Part shown: in pieces, positions 53,545-55,109 of the stretch
Position numbering within the stretch: position 1 is the stretch's first letter
Layout of the letters: each line of letters starts with the position of its first letter
NCBI RefSeq assembly: GCF_900112765.1
Contig: NZ_FOMZ01000005.1
Span: forward strand, 236,119 to 300,118
DNA from: Actinopolyspora alba
GTDB lineage: Bacteria; Actinomycetota; Actinomycetes; Mycobacteriales; Pseudonocardiaceae
Reading direction: 5' to 3'
DNA: 64,000 bases
Made by a program: the position numbers and the translations under genes
Notes under the pieces: generated by a model
The model's input: the letters and a program-made list of their open reading frames with translations, nothing else
What the model was told of the DNA's origin: nothing
Databases searched by the model: none

Positions 53545-53793
53545 ATGCTCGACGAAATACGTGCCCAACTACAGCAGATCACCGACACCGCACCCACCGA
53601 TGAACTACAGATCGTGCGAACCGAACTTGACGAGCTACGCGGGAAACTGAACCAAGTGGCCGGAACCAGCAATGACAACGACGTACAACAAGCGATACGA
53701 TTGTTCGGCGCAGCTCACGAGAAAACGGATGAAGCCACACAGACGGCGATGCGTGCCAGCGAGCACGTCCGTGAATACGCTGCCGCGCTGTAG
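53545..53793 (+). CDS. small helical protein paired with the deaminase toxin
   Basis: An 82-residue, almost fully helical protein with no signal peptide. Residues 40-82 (GTSNDNDVQQAIRLF, then EHVREYAAAL) align with residues 44-85 of the toxin encoded next (GTNNAQLSEAIELF, then TRLVDYLAGL). It is thus a short paralogue of the toxin's N-terminal domain. In type VII secretion, LXG and related toxins need small helical partners encoded just upstream. I infer a comparable helper here. AGAGAG lies nine bases before the ATG. The stop is nine bases from the toxin start. Confidence 0.8.
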   Translation: MLDEIRAQLQQITDTAPTDELQIVRTELDELRGKLNQVAGTSNDNDVQQAIRLFGAAHEKTDEATQTAMRASEHVREYAAAL

Positions 53794-53802
53794 GAGTCTG
53801 TG

Positions 53803-54639
53803 ATGTCCGAGGTAGAAGAGCTGGCCAACAGCATTACCGGCATCATCCGACGTTCCCCCACCAATCGGCTGCGTCGAATCAAAGTGTGGCTGGAGGAATA
53901 CGCCCTGCCCACGTTGAACGAGACCACCGAGGGAACCAACAACGCACAGCTGTCCGAAGCCATAGAGTTGTTCCAACACACACGTGAGTTGGTCGAAGAC
54001 GCACTCGCTCTGTGCGACAACAGCCACACACGTCTGGTCGACTACCTCGCCGGACTCGGGACGAACGATGCGTCCCCTCCTGCTCTGCCACACCCGTCGA
54101 CCTATCGACCTCCGGTCAGCGATAACCCAGCCACGGTCGATCAATGGGTCAGCCAAGCCCGCGACAAGCTACCCGAACGTCCCGCGGGCAAGGGCTCAAC
54201 CACAGGAATCGTGCGTGGATTCGCCGGATCCGGTGATGTGGAGGTAACAAGCGGTGGTTCCGGCCGCCGAGTGTGGAAGCCTGGCACCGAAAGATGGGAA
54301 CGTCAGCCCGAGAGTGAGCAGGACGAGACGCCCAAAGCCAGGCAGGAACGTCAGCTGATCGACAGAATCGACACCCTCCTCGTCACGGTTGGTCAGCGGT
54401 TCCCCATCCCACGTCCAGATCTGGCGATGCCGGAGACCTCGACCCACGTGGAAACGAAGGTGGCGATGCGGATGCGCGAGTCCGGGATCACCTATGCGGC
54501 GATCACCATCAACAACCACGTTTGTGACGGCCCACTCGGCTGCCGGACCGCTGTAGCCGTGATTCTTCCGAAAAGTTACGTGCTCGAGGTTTGGGAACCG
54601 GCGGAAACACGACCAGTACGAATCGAGGGACAGGCATGA
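53803..54639 (+). CDS. DddA-like (SCP1.201 family) deaminase toxin
   Basis: The 278-residue polymorphic toxin has an N-terminal helical domain (1-90), a Pro-rich linker (91-180) and a C-terminal deaminase domain (about 185-265). The catalytic H215-x-E217 of THVETKVA and the zinc cysteines of CDGPLGC (241, 247) are present, as is the TINNHVCDG strand. Known members convert cytosine to uracil in double-stranded DNA. There is no signal peptide and no RHS or WXG repeat. The next gene encodes an Imm1-type immunity protein overlapping the stop by four bases (ATGA). ATG 53803 follows TAGGAG by six bases. Substrate (dsDNA, ssDNA or RNA) cannot be told from sequence alone. Confidence 0.86.
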   Translation: MSEVEELANSITGIIRRSPTNRLRRIKVWLEEYALPTLNETTEGTNNAQLSEAIELFQHTRELVEDALALCDNSHTRLVDYLAGLGTNDASPPALPHPSTYRPPVSDNPATVDQWVSQARDKLPERPAGKGSTTGIVRGFAGSGDVEVTSGGSGRRVWKPGTERWERQPESEQDETPKARQERQLIDRIDTLLVTVGQRFPIPRPDLAMPETSTHVETKVAMRMRESGITYAAITINNHVCDGPLGCRTAVAVILPKSYVLEVWEPAETRPVRIEGQA

Positions 54640-55109
54640 CAACGATCGACACCACGACCGTGCTCACGATCATGTTCGACCAGTACCGCCGGTCACATCA
54701 CGCCTACACAGCTGAGGAAATCGCTACTCTTCTCGACCACGTGGTCACCGAATCCACCGAGGGAAACCGCACCACGCTGGTCACCGTGTGGGACCGACCG
54801 GCCCACTCCCATCACGACGATGGTCAACCCGAGTACCCACCCGCCTACCTCCGCGTCGCCGTCGATCCCGACACGGGTTGGGGCGCGATGACCTGGATCG
54901 ACCTCACTGCGGGCGGGGTGCTCGACACCTTCGACCCGGCCGGGCCGGACGACCGCCCCGCCCTGGTGTTCGCCGCCGACGAGCCCAGCTACCTCCCCAA
55001 CTCCGCGTCCCTTCCACTCGAACGGATACGCCGTGCCCTGTGCGAATACGCCGAGACCGGCACACGCCCCACCACCGTGCGGTGGCAGCAGGGATACCTC
55101 GTCCTCTGA
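54636..55109 (+). CDS. Imm1 family immunity protein
   Basis: The 157-residue protein has the Imm1 pattern: acidic early helix, then strands with TLVTVWDRP, PPAYLRVAVDPDTGWGAMTW and PTTVRWQQGYLVL. Imm1 proteins neutralise deaminase and nuclease toxins of the polymorphic systems by covering the active site. Its ATG lies in ATGA, which also supplies the stop of the toxin gene, so antidote and toxin are made together. This context strongly supports the pair's identity. Confidence 0.86.
   Translation: MTTIDTTTVLTIMFDQYRRSHHAYTAEEIATLLDHVVTESTEGNRTTLVTVWDRPAHSHHDDGQPEYPPAYLRVAVDPDTGWGAMTWIDLTAGGVLDTFDPAGPDDRPALVFAADEPSYLPNSASLPLERIRRALCEYAETGTRPTTVRWQQGYLVL

Follow-up and report, generated by a model that had tools for sequence, protein, structure and literature searches.

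Several systems described in the literature resemble a toxin operon of Actinopolyspora alba. This operon lies in a 64,000-nucleotide stretch of the genome (hereafter the window; contig NZ_FOMZ01000005.1, positions 236,119 to 300,118) and encodes a short DddA-like deaminase with a helical N-terminal domain (the tag), an 82-amino-acid (aa) protein and the immunity protein Imm1. A table published in 2012 already pairs SCP1.201 deaminases with Imm1 (PMC3482391). DddA itself, from Burkholderia cenocepacia, is delivered by a type VI secretion system (PMC7901873). Among type VII secretion systems (T7SS), the LXG toxins (T7SSb) have a helical N-terminus, a variable toxin end, helical partners and an FtsK-type motor (PMC9600955, PMC10730906). 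Mobile T7SS variants have been described whose YueA-like ATPase has three HerA/FtsK domains, the middle one alone being active (Zhang 2012, PMC3482391), and the variants T7SSc-j contain an EccC-type ATPase, small helical proteins and small WXG100-related genes beside candidate substrates (Garrett 2024, PMC11217815).

The A. alba toxin is like DddA in its deaminase domain, with the HxE motif and the cysteine pair, and unlike it in having a small helical tag, a C-x5-C spacing and Imm1. Its best profile match in the PDB covers linker and deaminase (8w20_A, an intein C-terminal splicing domain-containing protein, 3.9e-19), but that match lies in the C-terminal domain of a 1368-aa chain, whereas the toxin in the window is short and tagged. 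Solo copies of the tag, encoded as small genes, are linked to an EccC-like ATPase without an obvious membrane anchor, which we call the orphan ATPase. This arrangement shares its helical tags, helical partners, variable toxin ends and FtsK-type motor with the LXG systems, but it is not matched by LXG and is found in Actinomycetota, with the solo tag genes linked to the anchorless ATPase. The nearest precedent that we have seen is given by the YueA-like variants: as in Zhang 2012, the orphan ATPase has its Walker A motif in the middle unit and is accompanied by solo helical proteins. Those variants, however, are from other phyla and have solo WXG domains, whereas here a syntenic locus of Actinomycetota and tagged toxins are involved. 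T7SSd, the Actinomycetota member of the Garrett 2024 variants, differs in having further components, which were not recognised at the orphan ATPase locus. In the titles and abstract openings of the open-licence literature, a body that leaves out most subscription papers, we found no report of the tag or of the orphan ATPase locus of Actinomycetota.

The toxin and its immunity protein are of known kinds. At the level of sequence, the protein families, the operon and its conservation, the sharing of the tag and the linkage of solo tags to the ATPase are all established. The best explanation of the operon is a polymorphic toxin cassette, with an Esx-like helical partner, a tagged toxin of the cytosine-deaminase type and an Imm1 antidote. 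We consider it somewhat probable that the toxin is an interbacterial deaminase with a WXG100-like tag, and that an uncharacterised type VII-like ATPase system handles this tag, probably together with a small partner.

The deaminase toxin and its operon

The toxin matches PF14428 over residues 208-276 with 66 bits, against a curated cut-off of 25 (Pfam), and H215, E217, C241 and C247 were found where the initial annotation, which had called the protein DddA-like, had placed them. These four residues are invariant in the seven PF14428 proteins of the A. alba genome and align with solved DddA; in the PDB, the profile of the seven paralogues matches DddA (9jo8, 5.1e-6; 6u08, 8.4e-5). Among 22 homologues of a wider set, E217, C241 and C247 never vary, whereas residue 215 is a His in 12 and an Asp in 10, the latter still falling within the published motif of these deaminase toxins, [HCD]xE (PMC3482391). 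The cysteine spacing in the window toxin is C-x5-C and not CxxC, and both spacings occur in the genus. An AlphaFold2 model of the toxin, built from 11 sequences, is of low confidence (mean predicted local distance difference test score, pLDDT, 56.3). Its C-terminal part runs from a helix at 216-227 that starts within HVE through a strand to a helix at 247-254 that starts at the second Cys, followed by a strand. The top Foldseek row for this model is TOD6 with DNA (9lcx, E 0.027, prob 1.00); the toxin sequence profile likewise matched this chain in the same part, as a deaminase. TOD6 is DddA-derived. No deaminase was found among the 50 VIA rows for the toxin, which cover the hairpin. The model thus agrees weakly with a deaminase fold, and the family assignments of toxin and immunity protein are secure on sequence grounds. 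They do not fix the substrate as double-stranded or single-stranded DNA, because PF14428 holds enzymes of both kinds, and many SCP1.201 members use single-stranded DNA (PMC10847098).

The absence of RHS, WXG and signal sequences claimed by the initial annotation was borne out: no RHS or WXG100 match was found in the toxin with Pfam and NCBIfam, and its first 80 residues contain no hydrophobic segment (17-residue hydropathy maximum 0.38). Its view of the gene as unusually short did not hold. All seven PF14428 genes of the genome are short, and in the family sample, in which 74 of 150 genomes have PF14428 matches, only five of 150 open frames among the matches listed exceed 400 aa. Short RHS-less forms are therefore the rule in this genome and in the family frames listed, and we rejected the idea that they are a rarity. 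Two Streptomyces plasmid deaminases that were inspected each lie within a much longer protein. In A. biskrensis (L154 5001-5705), the C-terminus of a deaminase toxin resembles the end of an Imm1 protein (VVWQPGQWY), and an adjacent Imm1 frame was not found at that locus.

Three open reading frames (ORFs) on the forward strand of the window form one unit (Table 1). The toxin and Imm1 ORFs share an ATGA (54636-54639), the four-base overlap that had been annotated, and Imm1 reaches 58.6 bits against a curated PF14430 cut-off of 22.4 (Pfam). A complete operon from 53545 had been proposed; the unit is real, but its start belongs to the 82-aa member gene, which had not been mentioned. Eleven related loci were found in Actinopolyspora, from five species, with the 82-aa gene upstream in seven and Imm1 in the -4 overlap in ten. 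Compared with the A. mortivallis orthologue, the 82-aa gene has a ratio of non-synonymous to synonymous change (pN/pS) of 0.29, the toxin one of 0.35 and Imm1 one of 0.30; within the toxin, the ratio is 0.58 for residues 1-90 and 0.21 for the deaminase end. The toxin operon is real and not a chance set of ORFs. Among the 61 genes called in the window, by a simple script and not a trained gene finder, third-position GC content is lowest in the 82-aa gene (0.61) and next lowest in the toxin (0.68; median 0.85), as expected for exchanged cassettes. The repeats that flank the operon are short two-copy matches only.

At the orthologous site in A. mzabensis (L225, G134), the toxin and most of the 82-aa gene are gone, and in one ORF (3979-4479 of L225) the start of the 82-aa gene reads in frame into Imm1. 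The Imm1 that remains there shares 93% identity over 150 codons, and constraint on this orphan copy was not significant (pN/pS 0.51, p 0.18). Loss of the toxin with retention of Imm1 fits the toxin-immunity reading. Elsewhere in the A. alba genome (G000:C27, L057 7472-8234), a solo tag gene is followed by a short second tag frame and, judged by eye, an Imm1-like gene, and no toxin was seen; from its sequence, this stretch looks like a toxin-less remnant.

Table 1. Coordinates of the toxin operon and its parts in the window.
Feature	Position	Strand	Basis
82-aa solo helical protein gene, likely partner of the toxin N-terminal domain	53545..53793	+	Homology to toxin residues 1-86
DddA-like deaminase toxin, ATG start, 278 aa	53803..54639	+	PF14428, E 4.3e-18
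Toxin N-terminal helical domain, residues 1-86, predicted WXG100-like hairpin without WXG motif	53803..54060	+	Tag alignments and model
Deaminase domain, residues 208-278	54424..54636	+	Pfam match 208-276; PDB profile matches to DddA
H215-V-E217, predicted zinc ligand and catalytic Glu	54445..54453	+	Alignment to HVE of DddA 9jo8
C241-x5-C247, predicted zinc ligands	54523..54543	+	Invariant in seven paralogues and in 22 wider homologues
Imm1 immunity protein, 157 aa	54636..55109	+	PF14430, E 1.3e-15

The N-terminal tag and its partners

Residues 1-86 of the toxin are homologous to the 82-aa protein that is encoded just upstream. In its model, the 82-aa protein forms a hairpin (helices 2-15, 18-39 and 45-81; mean pLDDT 84). 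The toxin tag is modelled as helices 3-17, 20-42 and 48-84, with block pLDDT values of 55-81 for roughly the first 70 residues and under 50 from residue 72 onwards. In Foldseek, Staphylococcus aureus EsxA ranks first and second for the 82-aa hairpin, but at E 0.28, and the 50 rows of its VIA list are generic hairpins and coiled coils with no Esx row among them. As the Foldseek values are not significant and the VIA rows generic, the hairpin fold alone decides nothing, and we rejected this structure comparison as proof. Neither the 82-aa protein nor the toxin matches PF06013 (WXG100) in Pfam at E up to 10, and both lack W-x-G at the turn. A G-[ST] close to the turn is found in 21 of the 29 rows of the tag alignment. 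Five small genes that directly precede tagged toxins of other genera were inspected. Four of them encode a Trp at the hairpin turn, and two of these have a genuine W-x-G there (WHG in L170, WAG in L171). The L171 gene is assigned as a partner from its position and is not detected by the tag profile at 1e-3. The hydropathy of the first 80 residues led us to reject the tag as a signal peptide or transmembrane segment.

The tag is not confined to deaminases. It precedes an EndoU end (PF14436, 8.9e-16) as well as CdiA_C-like and Ntox50-like ends, both below the curated cut-offs, and Pfam scans of several other tagged proteins gave no C-terminal family. The helical N-terminal profile, built from the seven PF14428 toxins of A. 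alba, matches all of them. A small tag protein in tandem with a tagged toxin recurs at L167, L170, L174 and L175. In three loci the tag is fused to Imm1 instead of a toxin (L034 in G068, PF14430 3.9e-17; L038 in G034, 1.4e-17; L041 in G096, by similarity); these fusions could be trans-acting immunity proteins that dock on the toxin tag. Judged by these sequences, the tag is a widespread module of polymorphic toxins. The N-terminal domain had been described as new, which holds only in so far as Pfam and NCBIfam contain no significant match to it. Between the A. alba toxin and its A. mortivallis orthologue, identity is 43% in the N-terminal part and 77-82% in the rest, a difference that suggests that tags and toxin ends have been shuffled relative to each other.

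Linkage of solo tags to an EccC-like ATPase

Two further solo tag proteins (86 and 83 aa) are encoded elsewhere in the A. alba genome, on contig C20, upstream of a 973-aa protein of the FtsK/SpoIIIE family, the orphan ATPase (G000:C20:91.4-94.3 kb); the locus also encodes a 145-aa coiled-coil protein. In all 14 ATPase loci that were read, a solo helical gene precedes the ATPase, with a second one in ten, and a coiled-coil gene follows in 12. The ATPase matches TIGR03924 (EccCa) at 7.7e-26 with 91 bits, short of the curated cut-off of 509, and in the PDB it matches EccC (4nh0, 4.6e-21), YukB (9.1e-15), EccC5 (9.2e-13) and FtsK (1.1e-5). By sequence comparison, its best matches are thus T7SS motors. 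The protein has three units; in hhalign, the N-terminal unit matches the middle one at E 4.4e-6 and the C-terminal unit does so weakly (0.003). Walker A is intact in the middle unit of 14/14 copies, and 13/14 have no other P-loop motif, the exception being L085 with A-x4-GKS at residue 155. A second, divergent ATPase locus with a solo tag gene was seen at L090 (7422-13087) and L091 (7869-13494), where the ATPases are 846-847 aa long and about 45% identical; these loci also encode proteins of 420, about 170, 120 and about 240 aa.

Tag and ATPase occur together. Among 394 genomes of the class, 33 carry the ATPase (E 1e-60) and 39 the tag (E 1e-5); 31 genomes have both, two the ATPase only and eight the tag only (Fisher 3e-36, uncorrected for kinship). 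In 28 of the 31 genomes with both, the matches lie on one contig, 110-2591 bases apart, and in the other three, which are fragmented assemblies, they lie on different contigs. Two tag-only genomes (G166, G237) have an ATPase piece beside the tag gene, four (G301, G408, G448, G456) yielded no ATPase in the short flanking stretch, and the neighbourhoods of the last two (G171, G432) fell outside this check. In the 150-genome family sample, the ATPase is present in 119 genomes, among them 92 of the 93 with tag matches, core solo proteins included (the exception is G074).

PF14428 was found in 67 of the 119 ATPase-bearing family genomes versus 7 of the 31 ATPase-less ones (p 0.001). To compare N-termini, one locus was taken from each of 29 ATPase-bearing genomes, those scoring best for PF14428 among the matches listed. 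At 26 of these 29 deaminase loci the tag is present, 22 times within the toxin ORF, L092 and L093 being counted on weak scores (0.018 and 0.021), and four times in a separate ORF just upstream (L102, L103, L105 and L119; E 7.9e-9, 1.2e-4, 0.096 and 0.0016); L112, L114 and L115 are tag-less. In five ATPase-less genomes, only one of 12 deaminase loci is tagged (G074) and nine have a hydrophobic N-terminus. The tag profile used for this classing was seeded partly with proteins of the tested genomes, and the G028 deaminase, at a contig end, was left unclassed. Within the first 80 residues, 17-residue hydropathy never exceeds 1.64 at the 29 loci of ATPase-bearing genomes, whereas it reaches 2.2-3.0 at the nine hydrophobic loci of ATPase-less ones. 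A sixth ATPase-less genome, G040 (L212), was added after the Fisher test; its deaminase is untagged, with a hydrophobic segment of 2.26. In most of the ATPase-less DddA-like proteins (L122-L131, L212), a strongly hydrophobic N-terminal segment thus replaces the tag.

Export and its alternatives

In the mechanism that we propose, the toxin tag and the 82-aa protein would pair like EsxA and EsxB, and the orphan ATPase would recognise this pair. The toxin would then be exported, enter a competitor and deaminate nucleic acid there, and Imm1 would protect the producer and its siblings. The initial annotation had suggested a separate delivery class for this toxin, an idea that gains support from the linkage of solo tag copies to the EccC-like ATPase, while delivery itself is what we infer.

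A number of observations speak against this proposal. Its weakest point is the missing membrane part: a borrowed ESX channel might be used, or there may be no export at all. Hydropathy shows no clear membrane-spanning stretch in the ATPase (19-residue maxima of 1.28-1.69 in five copies), and no Ecc-type membrane subunit was recognised at the 14 ATPase loci, by eye from the first 90-110 residues and with no search for EccD, EccE and MycP. The P-loop unit of the ATPase also matches PADLOC models SspH (7e-20) and mads_8 (1.4e-18) and a phage FtsK-like PHROG (3.7e-28). The modelled hairpin is not specific as a fold, and the tag is also fused to Imm1, a protein that is not expected to be exported. 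Of the seven A. alba toxins, three have no upstream partner gene that could be found and a fourth only a 56-aa piece. As the class-level tag matches are mostly core solo proteins, the linkage ties the tag family, and not the toxins directly, to the ATPase. Among the matches listed, toxin loci are mostly far from the ATPase, and the sole physical linkage is a frame-broken toxin operon about 4 kb away from it in G072 (L080 6824-8281, G072:C2). Finally, the ATPase-less comparison covers three genera only, and in G074 a tagged deaminase occurs without such an ATPase in the genome.

A multi-pass membrane gene also lies a few genes from the ATPase in Actinopolyspora (L054 3887-4810). Such a gene is conserved in L080-L082 and L089, in Actinopolyspora and one relative.

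The tagged toxins might instead be exported by one of two canonical ESX (T7SSa) systems of the same genome, in which case the orphan ATPase would be a separate housekeeping machine with only the helical fold in common. We regard this as unlikely, though it is the strongest of the alternatives. The A. alba genome does encode two canonical ESX loci with EccB and WXG100 matches (G000:C36:28-45 kb and G000:C35:141-148 kb), both outside the window and on contigs other than that of the orphan ATPase, and several WXG100 genes above the cut-off; the predicted helical hairpin may resemble Esx proteins, and some partner genes have W-x-G at the turn. However, the tag profile picks out the solo proteins of the orphan ATPase locus, and the Pfam WXG100 model misses both the toxin and the 82-aa protein. 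Moreover, EccC-sized frames of the FtsK family (about 1330-1500 aa) are present in all six ATPase-less genomes but G148, and these genomes carry mainly deaminases with a hydrophobic N-terminus, so that canonical ESX does not predict the tag.

It is improbable, in our view, that the toxin stays within the cell for self-killing, for example against phages or plasmids, with the tag tethering it to the FtsK-like motor and Imm1 acting as the antitoxin. The lack of a clear anchor in the ATPase, the tag-Imm1 fusions and the defence models SspH and mads_8 would fit such a role. On the other hand, PADLOC gave no match to the toxin, the partner or Imm1 at E up to 0.01, the toxin ends are of polymorphic-toxin kinds and the ATPase-less relatives have hydrophobic, export-type N-termini; the seven PF14428 genes in one genome further suggest an arsenal. 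That this is an ordinary DddA-like toxin with Imm1, whose N-terminus merely serves solubility or dimerisation without a dedicated system, is very improbable: PF14428 and Imm1 are catalogued and their pairing is published, but the same tag fronts toxin ends of different kinds, and where it stands alone it is tied to a single ATPase locus.

Export by a type VII-like ATPase system thus remains our preferred reading, and we tentatively extend it beyond A. alba. It is possible that Actinomycetota have an undescribed type VII-like export branch, in which an anchorless three-unit EccC-like ATPase, an Esx-like protein or pair and a coiled-coil protein serve short tagged toxins (DddA-like, EndoU and others), many with their own partner and immunity gene. 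The families found here leave unexplained how short DddA-like toxins of actinomycetes, relatives of proteins that serve as base editors, get out of the cell. If the link between tag and ATPase is true, one ATPase gene would give a direct genetic handle on many toxins, and type VII secretion would gain a branch whose motor may lack membrane anchoring.
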